NCBI RefSeq assembly: GCF_022808855.1
Contig: NZ_JAKZLF010000020.1
Coordinates: 1 to 64,000 of the forward strand
DNA: 64,000 nt
Source of the DNA: Anaeromyxobacter soli
Lineage (GTDB): Bacteria > Myxococcota > Myxococcia > Myxococcales > Anaeromyxobacteraceae
Reading direction: 5' to 3'
In this document: in pieces, positions 7,814-15,546 of the stretch
How positions within the stretch are numbered: the stretch's first letter is position 1
Layout: each line of letters begins with the position of its first letter
Program-made: the position numbers and the translations under genes
Notes under the pieces: model-generated
The model's database searches: none
Told to the model about the DNA's origin: nothing
The model's input: the letters and a program-made list of their open reading frames with translations, nothing else

Positions 7814-7980
7814 GGCTCGCGAGGGCGGCGTCCCGCGACCGCGGGGCGCCGCCGCCCGCGCACCCCCTCCCACCTTCCTGACGACCCGGCGCGGGTGGCA
7901 CTTTCCATTCCGCGCGGGGGAGCGTGTCTCTCTCCGTAGACCGCGCCGGAATGATCCGGCCGACCACCGAGGTCTCCGAG

Positions 7981-8988
7981 ATGAGAAAGACGATCGCCGC
8001 GCTGTCCCTCGCCGTGCTCGCGTCAGCGTGCGGGAAGCAGGACATCACCCCTGACGAGGCGCGGAGCGCCGTCCCCGAGTCGAGCGCCATCCGCATCGAC
8101 ACCCCGAAGGACAGCGCGGACGCTTCCTCCCCGTCCTCCCCGGCCGCGCTCACCGCGACCGCCGAGGCGACCTTCGACGCCCGCTTCCCCGCCCTGACGA
8201 CCTCGGACTACGCGCGCTGGTCCTACGTCACCGCCTGGACCGTGAACGGCGGCGCGTGGTGGACGCTCGCGACGCTCCGCCTCGTCACGCTCCTCCCGCC
8301 GACCGCCTGCAGCGGCGACACGTGCACCTGGGGCCCCTGGGACGAGGAGAGCAAGGTCGGGCTCAAGGTGAAGCGCTGGCAGCTCGTCGTCACGAAGGTC
8401 GAGGAGGGCAAGTTCACCTACGAGCTCTCGGCCATGAACCTCCTCGTGCCCGGCCCGTTCCTCTCCATCGTGAGCGGCGTCGCCGAGCCCGCCGGCCCCG
8501 GCCGCGGCAAGGGGCAGCTCACCGTCTCCTTCGACAACGCGCGCCAGCTCCCGGAGTCCGAGCAGCGCTACGGGACGCTGACGATCCAGTACGACACCAC
8601 CGCCGAGGCCCGCGTCGACGCGCAGCTCGCCGGCGGGCGCGACGAGCAGAACGGGAACCCGCTCGACGCCGCGTACGCGTTCGTCGCGACGGGCGCCGGC
8701 GGGGACCTCCAGGTGGCGTTCCGCGGCCAGGACCCGGCGGCGAACCCGGTGAACCTCTCGCTCCACGCGCGCTGGGACGGGACCGGCGCGGGCCGCGGCG
8801 ACGCGCGGGTCTTCGCCGAGGACGTGAACGGGAGCTGGACGTTCGACTACGGCGCGAGCGAGTGCTGGGCGGGCAAGGCGGGCGCCTTCGCGCTCACCTA
8901 CGACACCGATCCGGCCTTCGGCGACGTGTCGGCCTGCGCGAGCGCCTTCCAGGGCGAGCCGCAGTACTCGACGCTCGGCCTCCCCTGA
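7981..8988 (+). CDS. Lipoprotein, first of two paralogues in the sigma/caspase operon
   Basis: 335-residue predicted lipoprotein. The N terminus MRKTIAALSLAVLASAC is a short signal peptide with a plausible lipobox ending at Cys17. The mature part is mostly beta-strand in character, with a CTWGPWDEE motif, GRGKGQLTVSFDNARQ, and near the C terminus GASECW and FGDVSACASAF. The same landmarks recur in order in the lipoprotein at 11877-12833, so the two are paralogues. I know no named family. The ATG at 7981 was chosen because it starts the signal peptide; the frame is open back to 7924. It opens a same-strand run; the ECF sigma gene begins nine bases after its stop. Role unknown; it is probably anchored in the inner or outer membrane and may be a target of the system. 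Confidence 0.82.
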   Translation: MRKTIAALSLAVLASACGKQDITPDEARSAVPESSAIRIDTPKDSADASSPSSPAALTATAEATFDARFPALTTSDYARWSYVTAWTVNGGAWWTLATLRLVTLLPPTACSGDTCTWGPWDEESKVGLKVKRWQLVVTKVEEGKFTYELSAMNLLVPGPFLSIVSGVAEPAGPGRGKGQLTVSFDNARQLPESEQRYGTLTIQYDTTAEARVDAQLAGGRDEQNGNPLDAAYAFVATGAGGDLQVAFRGQDPAANPVNLSLHARWDGTGAGRGDARVFAEDVNGSWTFDYGASECWAGKAGAFALTYDTDPAFGDVSACASAFQGEPQYSTLGLP

Positions 8989-8997
8989 GCGGGGCGG

Positions 8998-9582
8998 ATG
9001 GCGCGGCTCGAGGTCATCGCGGGAGGGAGGGCCGGCCCCGCCGGCCCGCTCCCCGCGGCCACGCCGGCGGCGGGGCTCGTCGAGGAGCTCTACCGCCGGC
9101 ACGCCGCGGGCGTGCTCGCGCGCTGCCGCTACCTGCTGCGCGACGAGGAGGGGGCGCGCGACGCGGCGCAGGAGGTCTTCGTCCGCGCGCTGCGCGCGCT
9201 CCCCGAGCTGCGCGCCGCCGCCTCGCCGAGCGCCTATCTCCTCACCGCCGCGACGCACCACTGTCTCAACGTCCTGCGCGCCTCGCGGGCGGCGTGGCGG
9301 GACGAGCTTACGCGGCTCGCCCGGGAGCGGGTGAGCGAGGGCATCGCGCCGGACTCCCGCGAGCTCGTGCGCGCGCTCCTCGGCGCGGCGCCGGTGGAGG
9401 CGCAGGAGGTCGCCGTGCTCTACTTCGTCGACGAGCTGACGCAGGCCGAGATCGCGGCGGCGACCGGCCGCAGCCTCCCGACCGTCCGCAAGCGGCTGCG
9501 CGAGTTCCTGGGCGCCGCGCGCGGCGCGCTCCGCGAGGCGTTCCCCGACCTGACCCTGCCGGATCCGGAGGAGCTGCCATGA
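8998..9582 (+). CDS. ECF-type RNA polymerase sigma factor
   Basis: Extracytoplasmic-function sigma-70 factor of 194 residues. Region 2 covers residues about 27-95 (VEELYRRHAAGVLARCRYLL, then DAAQEVFVRALRALPEL). Region 4 covers about 125-180 and has the helix-turn-helix LTQAEIAAATGRSLPTVRKR. No region 1.1 or 3. The start ATG at 8998 is nine bases after the first lipoprotein. Its TGA overlaps the ATG of the next gene, which has the HxxxCxxC anti-sigma motif. This is the classical sigma/anti-sigma arrangement, so the operon is probably under its own sigma factor. I did not find a confident ECF-type promoter upstream. Confidence 0.92.
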   Translation: MARLEVIAGGRAGPAGPLPAATPAAGLVEELYRRHAAGVLARCRYLLRDEEGARDAAQEVFVRALRALPELRAAASPSAYLLTAATHHCLNVLRASRAAWRDELTRLARERVSEGIAPDSRELVRALLGAAPVEAQEVAVLYFVDELTQAEIAAATGRSLPTVRKRLREFLGAARGALREAFPDLTLPDPEELP

Positions 9583-10316
9583 AGACCGAGCTGGGCGGCC
9601 CCGGCGTCGCGTGCTCGATCTCCCGGATCCGCCGGCTCGAGGCGGGCGAGCTGACGGGCGACGAGCGCTCCCGCACCGAGGGGCACCTCGCCGGCTGCGC
9701 GCGGTGCCAGGCCTCGGCGCGCGAGCTCGCGCGCGAGCGCGAGGCGCTCCACGCGTCGCTCCCGTTCGAGCGGTTCGCCGCGGGCGTCGCGGAGGGGCTC
9801 GCCCGCGCGGACGCGCCGGCCGCGGCCCCGCGCCGCCGCCTCCTCCGCGCAGGGCTGGCGCTCGCGGCCCTCCTCGTCGCCGTGGCGGCGGTGCCGCTCC
9901 TCCAGCGGCTCGCGCCCGGGCCGGACACGCAGGACTGGCGCGCCAAGGGCGCCCTCGAGCTCACCCTGTGGGCGAGCGAGGGCGGCCGCGTGCGGACGCT
10001 CGGGGAGGCCGAGCCGGTGCCGGCGGGCGCGTCGCTGCGCGTCGGGCTCCCCGCGTCGCGTCACGCGCACGCCGCGGTGGCGCTCGTGGACGGGGACGGC
10101 GTGGCGGTCCTCTTCGCCGGGCCGGCCACGGCGGGGGCGGTGGGGGACGCGTTCGCGTGGACGGGCGCGGGGGAGGGGGCGCTCGTGGCGGTGCTCGACG
10201 ACCGCCCCGTGGACGTGGGCGCGCTGCGGGCCCGGCTCGAGCGGCGCGGGGCGGAGGGCGCCGCCGGGGCGGGGCCCGCGGTGATCGTCCGGCCGCTCGT
10301 GCGAGGGCGGCCGTGA
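9579..10316 (+). CDS. Transmembrane zinc-finger (ZAS-type) anti-sigma factor
   Basis: 245 residues. The N-terminal cytoplasmic domain carries His36-x3-Cys40-x2-Cys43 (EGHLAGCARC), the zinc anti-sigma signature that binds ECF sigma factors. A single membrane helix follows basic RRR at residues about 88-108. The remaining 135 residues should be periplasmic. They contain beta-rich segments such as LELTLWASEGGRVRTLGE and ASLRVGLPASRHAHAAVALV, with no recognised sensor domain. The start ATG overlaps the sigma TGA, and the stop overlaps the GTG of the caspase gene, so the three are translationally coupled. Inference: it holds the sigma factor at the membrane until a periplasmic signal, perhaps involving the adjacent secreted caspase-like protein, releases it. 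Confidence 0.9.
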   Translation: MKTELGGPGVACSISRIRRLEAGELTGDERSRTEGHLAGCARCQASARELAREREALHASLPFERFAAGVAEGLARADAPAAAPRRRLLRAGLALAALLVAVAAVPLLQRLAPGPDTQDWRAKGALELTLWASEGGRVRTLGEAEPVPAGASLRVGLPASRHAHAAVALVDGDGVAVLFAGPATAGAVGDAFAWTGAGEGALVAVLDDRPVDVGALRARLERRGAEGAAGAGPAVIVRPLVRGRP

Positions 10317-11893
10317 CCCGGGCGCTCGCCGCCGCCGCGCTCCTCGCGCTCGCCGCCGGAGCCGGCGCGGCGGAGCCGCACCGCTTCGCGCTCGTCGCGG
10401 GCGCGCCCGACGGCGGGCCCGGGACCGCGAAGCTGCGCTACGCCGAGCGCGACGCGCGCCGCATCCACGGGATCCTCACGCGCGTCGGCGGGGTCAGGCC
10501 GGAGGACGCGCGGCTCATCCTCTCCGGCAGCGCCGGCGAGCTCATGCGCGCGCTCGGAGAGCTTTCGGACCGCGCCGGCGCGGCGCGCGCGCGCGGCGAG
10601 CGCACCGTGCTGCTCGTCTACTACTCCGGGCACGCGAAGGACGGGGCGCTCCGGCTCGGGAGCGGCCGCGTGCCGTTCGGCGACCTCCGCGCCGCGCTCG
10701 AGGCCGCGCCCGCCGACGTCCGCGTGGGCCTCGTGGACTCCTGCCGCTCGGGGGCCATCGCCCGGGCGAAGGGCGTCCGCCCCGCGCCGGCCTTCGACGT
10801 CTCGGCGGCGGAGGAGGGGCCCCGCGGGCTCGTGCTCATCGCCTCGTCCGCCGGGGACGAGGACTCGCAGGAGTCGGACACCATCGGGGCGAGCTGGTTC
10901 ACCCATCACCTGGCGTCGGGCCTCCTCGGCGCGGCGGACGCCTCCGGCGACGGGCGCGTCACGCTCGCCGAGGCCTACGCCTACGCGTACGCGCGCACCG
11001 TCGGCTCCACCGCCTCGAGCGCGGGGGGCGTCCAGCACCCGGTGTTCCTCTACGACCTCGGCGGCTCCGGCGATCTCGTCCTCACGGACCTCGCCCCGGT
11101 CGCAGGAGGGCTCCTCCTGCCCGCGGCCGCGGAGGGGCTCTACGTCGTGCTCGACGGCGCAGGCCGCGCCGTCGCCGAGGTGGCGAAGGGGGCAGGGGTG
11201 GAGCGGCGCGTCGCGCTCCCGGCGGGCCGGTACACCGTGAAGAAGCGGCTTGCCGACGACTCGGCGCTCCTCGTCGCGCCGGTGGCCGTGACCGGCGCCG
11301 CGCCGGCCGTCGTGGACGACGCGCGCATGGACCGGGTCCGGCTCGATCGCGACCCGCAGAAGGGCTTCTCGGGCACGCGCTGGGCCCTCCTGGCCGGGCT
11401 CGGCGCGCAGCGCTTCTTCGACCGCGCCGCGCGCGACGGGCTCTTCCCGCCCGCGGCGCTCGGCGGGCTCGAGCTCGCGGTCCGCGACGATCTCGGGCGC
11501 GGGCTCGCCTGGGGGATCGACGCCGCGCTGGGTGGCGGCGCCGGCACGCTGCGGATGCCGGGCGTCGAGCCCATCCCGGTGAAGTTCGCCGAGATCGCGG
11601 GGGGCGCCTCGCTCTGGAAGGACCTCGTCCTCGGACCGGTGGTGCTCTCGGCGGGCGCGCGGATCGGGCTCACGTTCCTCGGGCGCAGCTTCCCGGCGCG
11701 CGAGGAGCTGCCGAGCCAGACGTTCTTCACCGTGACGCCGGGGCTCGTGGGCGGCGCCGCCTGGCGCGCCTCTCCGCGCCTCGCCGCCGTGGCGCGCCTG
11801 CGGCTCTCGTACCTCTTCTACAACGTCGACGAGAACCGGAGCCTCGGGTTCGTCGAGGGGATGCTGGGGGTGGAGTATGCGCTCGGTGAATAG
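10313..11893 (+). CDS. Secreted caspase-fold (peptidase C14) protein with beta-rich C-terminal domain
   Basis: 526 residues. A signal peptide (residues 1-20, ending AGAGAA) is followed by a caspase/metacaspase domain at about 22-255. The catalytic dyad is visible as His107 in LVYYSGHAKDG and Cys144 in GLVDSCRSGAIA, each at the end of a hydrophobic strand as in C14 peptidases. DASGDGRVTLAEA at 209-221 has the spacing of an EF-hand-like calcium loop. Residues about 260-365 form a beta-sandwich-like linker. From about 375 alternating hydrophobic strands ending in an aromatic-rich C terminus (LRLSYLFYNVDENRS) look like an outer-membrane barrel. The GTG start at 10313 overlaps the anti-sigma stop and gives the complete signal peptide. 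Its 3' end overlaps the next lipoprotein by 17 bases. Substrate unknown; it may process a partner lipoprotein or the anti-sigma factor. Confidence 0.87.
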   Translation: MTRALAAAALLALAAGAGAAEPHRFALVAGAPDGGPGTAKLRYAERDARRIHGILTRVGGVRPEDARLILSGSAGELMRALGELSDRAGAARARGERTVLLVYYSGHAKDGALRLGSGRVPFGDLRAALEAAPADVRVGLVDSCRSGAIARAKGVRPAPAFDVSAAEEGPRGLVLIASSAGDEDSQESDTIGASWFTHHLASGLLGAADASGDGRVTLAEAYAYAYARTVGSTASSAGGVQHPVFLYDLGGSGDLVLTDLAPVAGGLLLPAAAEGLYVVLDGAGRAVAEVAKGAGVERRVALPAGRYTVKKRLADDSALLVAPVAVTGAAPAVVDDARMDRVRLDRDPQKGFSGTRWALLAGLGAQRFFDRAARDGLFPPAALGGLELAVRDDLGRGLAWGIDAALGGGAGTLRMPGVEPIPVKFAEIAGGASLWKDLVLGPVVLSAGARIGLTFLGRSFPAREELPSQTFFTVTPGLVGGAAWRASPRLAAVARLRLSYLFYNVDENRSLGFVEGMLGVEYALGE

Positions 11894-12833
11894 GCTGATC
11901 GTCCTCGCGCTCTGCCTGGGCCTCTGCGCCTGCGGCGACTACTCGACCGAGGACCTCCGGTTCCTGGCCGCCGTGCCGAGCCGCGCCGATCTGCGCGTGG
12001 AGGTCCCGCAGGACGCGGCGGCGAGCGCCGGAGCCTCGGCGCAGGTCGCGGCCTGCCCCACGCGCGCGGCCGACACGTGGCTGCGCGCCAAGCCGGAGTC
12101 GGACCGGCTGAACTCCGCGGTCGAGTTCCTGCTCGGGCTCGTGGACGTCGTCCGGCGCGAGCCGCCCTCCTGGAGGCAGGTGGACGCCCGCGGCTGGGGG
12201 CCCTTCCCCGACGGACGGCACCCGGGGCGCGAGCTCCGCGTGACGCTCCTGCGCCAGTACCCTGCGGGCCCGGAGGCGCCGCCCACGTTCGCGTACGCGT
12301 TCGACGCGCGCGTCTCCGGCGGCGGCGCCTGGACGACCGTGCTCGCCGGCTCGTTCGAGGGCGCGTCCGCCTCGCTCGGGAAGGGAACGCTCGGGCTCGA
12401 CTTCGACGCGCTCTGGTCGCTCGGGATGGCCGACGCCGGCACGCCGCGGGGGCGGATGGGCGTGGAGTACGACCGCTCCGCGGAGCCGGTGCGGATCGGG
12501 CTCCTCCTCGACCAGGACGGCTTCGGCCTCGCGCAGTTCGGCTACCGCTTCGAGGGCTACGCCGACCGGAGCGGCACGTTCACCTACGCGTTCCGGAACG
12601 CCCAGGGCGACCTGCTCGTCGCGACCGCCTCCTTCGACGCGGCGGCGGCCGGGCGCGCCGCGGTGGGCTTCCGCACCGTGGCCGGGGTCACGGGCGGCTT
12701 CCGCGAGTGCTGGGATCCCGCCGCGTGCCTCGTCTACGTGGACGATCCCGCGGCGTTCAGCTGCGGAGGCGCCTGGCCCTGCTCGCTCGGCGACGTGTCG
12801 GCGTGCCCGGCGGTGCCGTCGCCGCCGTTCTGA
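11877..12833 (+). CDS. Lipoprotein, second paralogue in the sigma/caspase operon
   Basis: 318-residue predicted lipoprotein. The signal peptide MRSVNRLIVLALCLGLCAC has a good lipobox (LCAC). The mature start, with AVPSRADLRVEVPQDAA, aligns with AVPESSAIRIDTPKDSA of the lipoprotein at 7981-8988. Later shared landmarks are WGPF, GKGTLGLDFD (GKGQLTVSFD in the other), GRMGVEYD (GTLTIQYD), an ECW triplet and LGDVSAC near the C terminus. So two diverged copies bracket the operon. The start ATG lies inside the end of the caspase gene in another frame, indicating coupling. No recognised family; the gene ends the operon eight bases before a convergent gene. Confidence 0.83.
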   Translation: MRSVNRLIVLALCLGLCACGDYSTEDLRFLAAVPSRADLRVEVPQDAAASAGASAQVAACPTRAADTWLRAKPESDRLNSAVEFLLGLVDVVRREPPSWRQVDARGWGPFPDGRHPGRELRVTLLRQYPAGPEAPPTFAYAFDARVSGGGAWTTVLAGSFEGASASLGKGTLGLDFDALWSLGMADAGTPRGRMGVEYDRSAEPVRIGLLLDQDGFGLAQFGYRFEGYADRSGTFTYAFRNAQGDLLVATASFDAAAAGRAAVGFRTVAGVTGGFRECWDPAACLVYVDDPAAFSCGGAWPCSLGDVSACPAVPSPPF

Positions 12834-12840
12834 GGACGAT

Positions 12841-13833
12841 TCACCCTGCGTGCGAGACGGTGAGGTAGACCATCGTCTGGTTCAGGAGCTGGTAGGCGAT
12901 CTCGCCGAAGGTGATCGGGCCGACGATGTCTCCGGTGGTCCTGCCCTCGAGCGACGAGTTGACGAAGTTGACGACGCAGTTGCACGAGAGGGCGACGCGC
13001 TCGGCGATCCCGGTGGGGAGCGCCGAGACGAAGGCGTCCACGTAGTCCTCGATCGGTCGGGCGTGGTGGTAACGGACCCCCGCGAACACCGGAGCGTAGA
13101 AGCGGACCTCGCCGCGGGATGGGTCCACGGACTGGAAGCTCACGTTGATCGCCGCGCCGAGGTAGTCGGCGACGAGGGGCAGGCGCGTGTCGAGGCGCGT
13201 CTCCCCGACGTACTCGGCGAAGTTGCGCTCCCGGCCGTCGATCTCCGCGAGGGTCGCCGAGAAGCCGGTCGCCGGGAAGGTGATCGTGGGCCCGGTCCCC
13301 GCCTCGAAGATGTTGAGGATCCCGATCTCCGCGCGCACGCCGGGCGGGAAGGCGACCTGCATCACGACGGCGTGGTGCTCCAGCGCCTCGGCCGTGGTGC
13401 CTTCGAACACCTTGGGCCTCGTCTTGCCGATCTCGGAGAGGTGGACCCCGGAGATCCACCCGAACAGCGGGGCGGTGGCGAACTTCTCGTACCTGGGCGC
13501 GTTCAGCGCGAACGAGAGATGCACGCGGCTCGCGTACGGAGCGATGATCACGCCCATCGAGCCCGCGGGCAGGTCCGAATACACCCGCGCGATCTCGCGC
13601 TCGTCGTAGCGGCGGATCGCGACGTACTCCGAGGGCGCGGGGAGCCGCTCGACGAAGATGCGGTGGCGATCGACCACGCCGCCTTCCTCGCTCATGAAGT
13701 ACGGGATGGTCCCCCCGATCCACCTGCCCCTGGGCAGCCGGCTGAGGGGGGTCTCGTCCCCGGCGAGCAGCAGCGTCTCCCCCTCGCGGATCAGCGCCGC
13801 GACCTCGTCCACCTCGAGGAGATGCCCTTTCAT
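12841..13833 (-). CDS. Conserved-looking hypothetical protein, about 330 residues
   Basis: Soluble, no signal peptide. It begins MKGHLLEVDEVAALI with a segment GETLLLAGDETPLSRLP. Further in are GGTIPYFM, ERLPAPSEYVAIRRYD and ALSCNCVVNFVNSSLEG with two closely spaced cysteines. I recognise no domain with confidence; it slightly recalls sensor-like proteins of the FIST type in its LPTGIAERVALSCNC stretch. The start is placed at 13833 because TATGGT lies exactly seven bases upstream on this strand, as at other leaderless starts here; 13845 is the upstream alternative. It converges with the lipoprotein gene and diverges from the histidine kinase. Confidence 0.75.
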   Translation of the reverse strand: MKGHLLEVDEVAALIREGETLLLAGDETPLSRLPRGRWIGGTIPYFMSEEGGVVDRHRIFVERLPAPSEYVAIRRYDEREIARVYSDLPAGSMGVIIAPYASRVHLSFALNAPRYEKFATAPLFGWISGVHLSEIGKTRPKVFEGTTAEALEHHAVVMQVAFPPGVRAEIGILNIFEAGTGPTITFPATGFSATLAEIDGRERNFAEYVGETRLDTRLPLVADYLGAAINVSFQSVDPSRGEVRFYAPVFAGVRYHHARPIEDYVDAFVSALPTGIAERVALSCNCVVNFVNSSLEGRTTGDIVGPITFGEIAYQLLNQTMVYLTVSHAG

Positions 13834-13840
13834 CACCACG

Positions 13841-13846
13841 ACCATA
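13841..13846 (-). promoter_or_regulatory. -10-like element for a leaderless start at 13833
   Basis: On the minus strand the order is TATGGT, seven bases (CGTGGTG), ATG. No Shine-Dalgarno sequence is present and no good -35 hexamer is seen. Confidence 0.4.
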
Positions 13847-14007: not shown

Positions 14008-15546
14008 ATGGCAGCAGACATGAGCCTGCTCGCTCAGCAGCTCCGGCTCAGCGCGATGGAGGCGGAGGTGAGCCGCTTCCAGCGGTTCGCGAAGGACGCC
14101 CCCATCGGCATCCTCTTCATCAGCAAAGACGCCACCGTGCAGTTCGCGAACGACGAGTACCTGCGCATCGTCGGCCGAACGCGGGAAGAGTTCGAGGCCG
14201 AGCGGTTCCGGCTGGGGCCGGTGCGGCCGCCGGAGTGGCTGCACCCGGAGGTCGGCGCGCGACACGAGAGCGAGTGCGTGCGGGGCGACGGCACGCGGGT
14301 GCCGATCCTCGTCGGCCTCTCGATCCAGGAGGACGGCGTCGCTGCGTTCGTCATCGACCTCACCTCCGAGAAGTCGGCGGAGCGCGCGCGCCAGGAGAGC
14401 GAGGCGCGCTACCGCGCCATCGCCGAGCAGCTCGCGGAGGCCGATCGACGCAAGGACGAGTTCTTCGGGATCCTGTCCCACGAGCTCCGGAATCCGCTCG
14501 CGCCCATCCGGAACGCGCTCCACCTCCTCGCGCGCGCTCCGGACGACCCGGCACGCGCCGCGCGGGCGCGCGAGGTCATCGATCGCCAGATCGGGCACCT
14601 CTCGCGGCTCGTCGACGACCTCCTCGACCTCACCCGGATCACGCGCGGGAGCATCCAGCTCGTCAGAAAGCGGCTCGATCTCGCGCGCGTCGTCCGCGAC
14701 ACCGTCGAGGACCACCGCGCCGGGTTCGACGCCATCGGCGTCGCGCTGATCCTGCAGCTGCCGCCGGCGCCGCTCCACGTGGAGGGCGACGAGACCCGGC
14801 TCGCGCAGGTGGTGGGAAACCTGCTCGCCAACTCGGCGAAGTTCACGCCGCGCGGCGGCGCGGTCACGGTGCGGCTCGAGGAAGGGCCGGCGCGCGCCGC
14901 GCTCCTCGAGGTCCGCGACACGGGGGAGGGGATCGAGCCGGACGTCCTCCCGCGCATCTTCGAGCCGTTCTCGCAGGCGGACCGCAGCCTCGCGCGCTCC
15001 CGCGGCGGCCTCGGCCTCGGCCTCAGCCTCGTGAAGCGCCTCGTCGAGCTGCACGGCGGCACGGTGAGCGCGACGAGCGCCGGCCGGGGCGCCGGGACGG
15101 AGGTCGCGGTGCGCCTGCCGCTCCTCGATCCGCCCCTCGCGGCGGCGGAGGCGGCGGCGCCAAGTGCCCCGCCGCGCGTCGCGCACGTGCTCGTCGTCGA
15201 GGACAACGCGGACGCCGCGGAGACGTTGCGCGATGCGCTCGAGCTCGAGGGGATGGAGGTCACGCTCGCGTCCGACGGCGAGGCGGGGCTCGCGGCCGCC
15301 CGGAAAAGAGCGCCGGATCTCGTCATCTGCGACATCGGGCTGCCAGGGGACCTCGACGGCTACGGGGTCGCGCGCGCGATGCGGGCCGATCCCGGCCTGC
15401 GCAGGGTCCCGCTCGTCGCCCTGACGGGCTACGTGGGCCCCGAGGACCGGGCGCGGGCCCGGGAGGCCGGCTTCGACCTCCACCTGGGAAAGCCGACCCG
15501 GCTCGCCGACCTGCTCGGTGCGATCGGCCCGCTCCTTCCGGCGTGA
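14008..15546 (+). CDS. PAS hybrid sensor histidine kinase with C-terminal receiver domain
   Basis: 512 residues, cytoplasmic: no membrane segment. A PAS domain covers residues about 25-120 (APIGILFISKDATVQFAND). The dimerisation domain carries the phospho-acceptor His158 in GILSHELRNPLAP. The HATPase covers about 275-385 with N box (VVGNLLANSAKFTPRG), G1 (DTGEGIEP) and G2 (SRGGLGLGLSLVKRL). A receiver domain follows from about 392 (HVLVVEDNAD) with phospho-acceptor Asp in VICDIGLPG and Lys in LGKPTRL. The ATG at 14008 follows GGAGG. No response regulator or output gene is adjacent, so it is an orphan whose receiver may shuttle phosphate to a remote phosphotransfer protein. It diverges from the hypothetical gene before it and converges with the aminotransferase after it. 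Confidence 0.94.
   Translation: MAADMSLLAQQLRLSAMEAEVSRFQRFAKDAPIGILFISKDATVQFANDEYLRIVGRTREEFEAERFRLGPVRPPEWLHPEVGARHESECVRGDGTRVPILVGLSIQEDGVAAFVIDLTSEKSAERARQESEARYRAIAEQLAEADRRKDEFFGILSHELRNPLAPIRNALHLLARAPDDPARAARAREVIDRQIGHLSRLVDDLLDLTRITRGSIQLVRKRLDLARVVRDTVEDHRAGFDAIGVALILQLPPAPLHVEGDETRLAQVVGNLLANSAKFTPRGGAVTVRLEEGPARAALLEVRDTGEGIEPDVLPRIFEPFSQADRSLARSRGGLGLGLSLVKRLVELHGGTVSATSAGRGAGTEVAVRLPLLDPPLAAAEAAAPSAPPRVAHVLVVEDNADAAETLRDALELEGMEVTLASDGEAGLAAARKRAPDLVICDIGLPGDLDGYGVARAMRADPGLRRVPLVALTGYVGPEDRARAREAGFDLHLGKPTRLADLLGAIGPLLPA

Follow-up and report, generated by a model that had tools for sequence, protein, structure and literature searches.

In the DegS/RseP pathway, which acts on RseA (the inhibitor of sigma-E), RsiW and RsiV, a single-pass anti-sigma factor holds an extracytoplasmic function (ECF) sigma factor and is cut just outside the membrane. 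A five-gene operon on the forward strand of a 64,000-nucleotide stretch of Anaeromyxobacter soli DNA (RefSeq assembly GCF_022808855.1, contig NZ_JAKZLF010000020.1, positions 1 to 64,000; hereafter the window) encodes the same kind of pair, an ECF sigma factor and a single-pass anti-sigma factor, Asf, for which a first cut at the same place is proposed here. It differs in its proposed site-1 protease, a caspase homologue of clan CD whose gene lies in the operon itself and which is predicted to be anchored by an outer-membrane barrel. The features described below make it likely that this caspase processes itself and is responsible for site-1 cleavage of Asf, freeing the sigma factor, so that the operon would form a relay from the envelope to the genes.

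A mechanistic precedent is provided by the Cas7-11-Csx29/Csx30/CASP-sigma system, in which a caspase-family (CHAT) protease cleaves the inhibitor of an ECF-like sigma factor and autoregulatory sigma sites are found in the locus (PMC10028731). The likeness lies in the pairing of a caspase-family protease with a sigma inhibitor and in autoregulation; the CASP system, however, is RNA-guided and employs the Csx30 inhibitor, whereas here the protease is exported and the inhibitor is a membrane zinc anti-sigma factor. Neither Cas7-11, a TPR-CHAT protease nor Csx30/Csx31 is encoded by the five operon genes or their aspartokinase-like and DUF6976 neighbours, and no TonB-dependent receptor gene, the hallmark of FecA/FecR-type systems, is present in the operon or immediately beside it. 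Orthocaspases and metacaspases (C14B; for example MaOC1 and TbMCA2) share the C14 fold, the His/Cys dyad and the acidic S1 residues but differ in that a signal peptide, an outer-membrane barrel and a dedicated sigma operon are features of the present locus. The EACC1/EACC2-caspase systems likewise pair a caspase with a partner that is constant or membrane-bound, and EACC2 loci often carry an ECF sigma gene, but the portions of those papers at hand describe no arrangement of zinc anti-sigma factor, transmembrane helix and Lys-Gly (K-G) motif (PMC7159879, PMC8195603); the EACC1-associated caspase model NF047832 scores 55.4 bits here, below its curated cut-off of 140. ECF54, with CHAT or subtilase neighbours, is likewise a protease-linked ECF group, although proteolysis is proposed there without an anti-sigma factor (PMC8999054).

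The first-pass annotation of this DNA had presented the operon as an undescribed signalling system, which holds only in part. Sigma-70 genes were listed in 2012 in four of five Myxococcus xanthus metacaspase operons, and also in Anaeromyxobacter, Haliangium, Sorangium, Ralstonia and Fibrobacter (Asplund-Samuelsson et al. 2012, PMC3501461), and these operons, with a caspase homologue and a sigma factor, very probably include loci of the present kind. In the accessible part of that paper the sigma factors figure as operon neighbours only; the anti-sigma factor, the lipoprotein pair, the barrel, the shared motif and a mechanism are absent from it. In the open-access literature no paper was found that describes a myxobacterial anti-sigma factor as the substrate of a caspase.

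A K-G motif shared by caspase and anti-sigma factor

Asf (245 aa; 9579-10316) consists of a zf-HC2 zinc domain, one transmembrane helix and a DUF4384-like periplasmic domain, with a DUF4384 match in 10 of 26 orthologues. Alignment of these 26 sequences leaves only ten invariant columns: R19 and G23 in the cytoplasmic domain, H36, C40 and C43 of the HxxxCxxC zinc motif (9684..9707), two alanines of the transmembrane helix, and R121-x-K123-G124. The last of these, R121-A-K123-G124 in the window (9939..9950), lies just periplasmic of the helix in a linker where little else is conserved, and its K|G bond is the proposed site-1 cut. The juxtamembrane R-x-K-G is present in 70 of 75 loci, the exceptions being one truncated gene, two cases of G-x-K-G, one R-x-K-S and one H-x-K-G; at locus L261 R-G stands in place of K-G, and the missing motif at L044, L081, L099 and L103 is an artefact of anti-sigma genes truncated at contig ends.

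The motif is not a general property of such proteins. None of 29 other zf-HC2 proteins, drawn from four genomes, has R-x-K-G, although about half of these proteins lack a clear transmembrane segment, and K-G is found at that position in none of eight other ECF-linked transmembrane proteins of the A. soli genome. Of 164 other transmembrane open reading frames of the loci examined, 11 had K-G within 50 residues and one had R-x-K-G. Transmembrane helices were called by a simple hydropathy window, and reading frames were taken stop to stop. The genome-wide controls are family searches. The profile by which most anti-sigma factors were found had been trained on sequences carrying the motif, which may introduce a bias; this is partly offset by an adjacency search which, without that profile, found the anti-sigma factors of a third caspase family (see below).

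The caspase (526 aa; 10313-11893; Peptidase_C14, 7e-6) carries a signal peptide, a caspase domain, a beta-rich stalk and a barrel. Its catalytic His107 (10631..10633) and Cys144 (10742..10744), on whose conservation the first-pass annotation had made a working protease depend, are invariant in 25 aligned orthologues and in all 86 distinct barrel-type sequences. Over the same 86 sequences only two K-G pairs are conserved. The first, in R151-A-K153-G154 (10763..10774; K-G in 86/86), is the proposed autoprocessing site; it is the same R-x-K-G as in Asf, placing a lysine nine residues after the catalytic cysteine, and in the AlphaFold2 (AF2) model residues 152-166 form a loop with a low predicted local distance difference test score (pLDDT). 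The second, K350-G351 (11360..11365; K-G in 85 of 86, R-G in the remaining one), falls just before the barrel, where a cut that releases the stalk from the barrel is proposed.

The specificity expected of the enzyme agrees with such sites. Acidic candidates for the S1 pocket are retained throughout the wider family (n=202): D47 in 191, D142, two residues before the catalytic cysteine, in 192, and E187 in 194. They correspond in position to S1-pocket acids of alpha1, L4 and L5, those of TbMCA2 (Asp95, Asp211) and MALT1 (Asp365, Asp462, Glu500), that have been implicated in recognition of a basic P1 residue (PMC4357240); the alpha1 match is also found in a metacaspase-1 profile alignment, and E187 would occupy the L5 position of the pocket. 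These acids predict cleavage after Lys or Arg, and the replacements of lysine by arginine at the motif fit recognition of basic P1 residues. Orthocaspases cleave after positively charged residues (PMC6426788), and the orthocaspase MaOC1 autoprocesses (PMC5756287).

The C-terminus of the caspase (residues 356-526; 11378..11890) is predicted to form an OmpA-like outer-membrane barrel of eight antiparallel strands. The AF2 model shows the caspase domain, the stalk and eight long strands between residues 356 and 524, and a Foldseek search with it recovered the OmpA transmembrane domain (1qjp; TMt 0.80; best E 1.4e-8), OmpX, NspA and metacaspases. The barrel that the first-pass annotation had guessed for residues 375-526 was thus right in kind. 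Outer-membrane barrels with an even number of strands have both termini in the periplasm, and the caspase domain should therefore be periplasmic, on the same side of the inner membrane as the Asf motif.

Further evidence is provided by sigma-anti-sigma-caspase triads paralogous to the operon, which lack the lipoproteins and occur in the genomes studied, including that of A. soli, and also in a Spirochaetales metagenome-assembled genome (MAG; L150). In these triads the caspase and anti-sigma motifs usually depart from R-x-K-G together: Q-V-K-G is paired with G-x-K-G, QSKG with QAKG, and GAKG with AAKG. In 124 dereplicated operons, used because the sets of loci partly overlap (L033 and L073, for example, are one genome), the state of the Arg position in the two proteins agrees in 116 (both Arg in 102, neither in 14) and differs in eight (five with Arg in one partner only, three with Arg only in the other). 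Four of six inferred changes in the caspase share a tree branch with a change in Asf (simulated P ~2e-4), and two Asf-only changes in this test are truncation artefacts.

A third, divergent family of exported caspases (L279, L280, L281, L346-L363), many with a lipobox, has no loop motif. Its K-G lies instead (21 of 21) in the linker that follows the N-terminal lipobox or signal peptide, and such anti-sigma factors as were found next to these caspases carry K-G beside the membrane without the arginine. Judged from these sequences, the K-G motif follows the caspase/anti-sigma pair even where its place in the protease differs.

A model for sigma factor release and its competitors

These features have led us to propose a model in which the caspase is exported and held in the outer membrane by its barrel, with the protease domain in the periplasm and the two envelope-located lipoproteins encoded by the operon, LipA and LipB, as probable sensor or gating partners. 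A signal would induce self-cleavage after K153, and perhaps also after K350; the caspase would then cut Asf after K123, within the R-x-K|G that borders the inner membrane on its periplasmic side. Release of the sigma factor would be finished by an RseP-type protease, and the sigma factor would transcribe its own operon in a positive feedback. The first-pass annotation had suggested that the caspase cuts the anti-sigma factor or a lipoprotein in the periplasm, in a mode unlike DegS/RseP. The anti-sigma half of that suggestion has gained strong, if indirect, support from the shared motif, the co-variation, the S1 acids and the compatible topology, while the lipoproteins offer no comparable conserved site; the contrast with DegS/RseP narrows to the site-1 step, which the caspase would take over, since an RseP-type site-2 protease is probably still needed and M50 (RseP-type) homologues are present.

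Several observations weigh against the model. The topology of the caspase is predicted, and the reach of an outer-membrane-tethered protease to an inner-membrane substrate is assumed; the barrel lacks the typical aromatic C-terminal residue; and the third family has Ala in place of the Asp two residues before the cysteine, unexpected if the S1 acids set specificity. One-sided motif changes occur at L245, L266, L286, L293, L119 and L138. Most five-gene sets share common descent, so that simple counts overstate their independence. Finally, caspases that lack an anti-sigma neighbour also retain the K-G loop, and the loop alone is not proof of a link to Asf.

That last point also speaks for an explanation in which the caspase is the output of the system: the sigma factor would drive a secreted caspase and lipoproteins directed at other targets, and the R-x-K-G of Asf would be a docking site or pseudosubstrate that holds the caspase inactive. 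The predicted promoter would drive the entire operon, caspase included, and an uncleaved substrate-like motif could inhibit. A poorly conserved linker beside the membrane, however, is more readily seen as a place of cleavage than as a folded surface for inhibition, and the Lys-to-Arg replacements noted above fit a P1 residue, so that we regard this explanation as unlikely.

Other basic-specific proteases could cut a Lys/Arg-Gly site. Both K-G cuts might accordingly be made by another periplasmic protease, DegS-like or trypsin-like, with the caspase as its substrate or as a member of the regulon, and cuts of the DegS type are the best-known case of site-1 proteolysis (PMC10028731). This would leave unexplained why K-G anti-sigma factors go with caspases while the other anti-sigma factors in these genomes lack the motif, why caspase and Asf change in pairs, and why the dyad and the S1 acids are kept; we consider it improbable. 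The C14 caspase is the only protease gene within the five-gene operon. That the caspase is aimed at LipA and LipB, or at surface targets of other cells, with the sigma factor regulated only indirectly, is very improbable: the two lipoproteins are tied to the barrel-type caspase, but R-x-K-G is conserved in neither (13 of 71 LipA, 10 of 78 LipB), for which reason they were rejected as the main substrate, and the paralogous triads retain the shared motif without them.

A role in programmed cell death or defence was also considered and set aside: PADLOC gave no match for the caspase, and the operon is dedicated and predicted to be autoregulated. A search of a plasmid collection with the caspase domain gave no match.

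For most bacterial caspase homologues the natural substrates are unknown and the usual discussion is of death enzymes; here the sequence alone yields a predicted substrate and a predicted cut site, in organisms that include the laboratory-tractable Myxococcus and Corallococcus. Should cleavage of Asf by the caspase be correct, caspases have a part in everyday signalling across membranes, and a mode of control can be predicted for many sigma factors of myxobacteria. The chances are about even for a broader proposal, that the exported caspases of Myxococcota are dedicated ECF site-1 proteases with a single K|G code for caspase activation, for release from the anchor (the barrel, or the lipid in the third family) and for the anti-sigma cut, the five-gene form being an outer-membrane-to-nucleoid relay with the two lipoproteins as sensor parts.

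Promoter, operon structure and distribution

The operon is predicted to be served by one ECF-type promoter common to all five genes, TTTCCATT-N14-GTGTC (7902..7928, forward strand), upstream of LipA. Of 83 loci, 73 have the motif TTTC(Y)(R)TT-N13/14-GTGTC ahead of LipA, vs 64 of 5833 background segments, both scanned with a somewhat looser form of the pattern. The strict form has this single site in the window and in the A. soli genome as a whole; it is likewise confined to the operon in genomes G003 and G081, and in G050 is found at the operon and two further sites. Such a conserved and near-unique promoter implies autoregulation and a narrow regulon, and in its strict form it appears essentially private to the operon; relaxed sites could add regulon members.

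The observation from which this work started is confirmed, and proves stronger than first described. Reading-frame and Pfam checks agree with the reported layout of five forward-strand genes with overlapping junctions, bracketed by lipoproteins, and with the ECF regions, zinc motif and C14 dyad. LipA (335 aa; 7981-8988; lipobox Cys17) is followed by the sigma factor (194 aa; 8998-9582), which matches Sigma70_r2 at 1.5e-12 and r4_2 at 7e-7, both above the cut-off, and has orthologues at the same place. The sigma and Asf genes overlap at ATGA (9579-9582) and those of Asf and the caspase at GTGA (10313-10316), and the caspase frame overlaps by 17 nt that of LipB (318 aa; 11877-12833; lipobox Cys19). 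The adjacent, co-oriented sigma gene (r2 + r4) and HxxxCxxC/transmembrane anti-sigma gene constitute a class I zinc anti-sigma pair.

LipA and LipB are homologous to each other, the lipobox cysteine is invariant in both, and neither matches a Pfam family. LipB, mostly beta with a helical N-terminus, gave a confident model (pLDDT 89.7) with no fold match in the PDB at E <= 0.001. A third lipoprotein of this family in the A. soli genome (L309; C1:8691-9596, minus strand) follows a gene resembling a sugar-nucleotide epimerase and has neither a caspase operon nor the promoter motif, which is absent upstream of the orphan LipA/LipB relatives in general.

Conservation was surveyed by tblastn in 40 loci and by profile searches in 80 named loci. 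The same gene order is found in Anaeromyxobacter, Corallococcus, Myxococcus, Archangium, Pyxidicoccus, Citreicoccus, Hyalangium and many MAGs; the window has close matches to A. terrae and A. oryzae. The complete order lipoprotein-sigma-Asf-caspase-lipoprotein is present in 57 of 85 loci with the long-type caspase, most of the others lying near a contig edge or coming from other classes, and LipA/LipB relatives occur in 126 of 145 Myxococcales genomes. Other classes of the phylum have sigma-Asf-caspase-lipoprotein, at times with a second lipoprotein gene upstream or downstream. Conservation of the neighbourhood, which the first-pass annotation had called for, thus extends across Myxococcales, and the order recurs in tens of genera, which argues against chance. 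The operon is not universal, several Anaeromyxobacter genomes being without it.

Individual loci depart from this picture in various ways. A close relative, G007 (L047), has a decayed operon, reduced to a broken LipB and the C-terminal portion of the caspase; in G127 (L303) the caspase gene is split, as if by insertion, into pieces kilobases apart with an internal stop. A contig labelled Comamonas sp. KCTC 72670 (BNCN01000006.1; L092) carries a complete five-gene operon of myxobacterial type, and the label is probably wrong. The second triad of the A. soli genome (L065; C2:111700-127000) has an anti-sigma factor with no zf-HC2 match and R-L-K-G beside the transmembrane helix, together with a caspase whose long C-terminal part is of unknown type. 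Caspases with the K-G loop and no sigma or anti-sigma gene detected nearby were found at L231, L246, L252, L257, L258, L262 and L269.

The genes flanking the operon in the window are unrelated to it, as had been reported: an aspartokinase-like gene lies upstream, and downstream a convergent gene for a DUF6976 protein (12841-13845, reverse strand) is followed by one for a hybrid histidine kinase with a receiver domain (14008-15546, forward strand).

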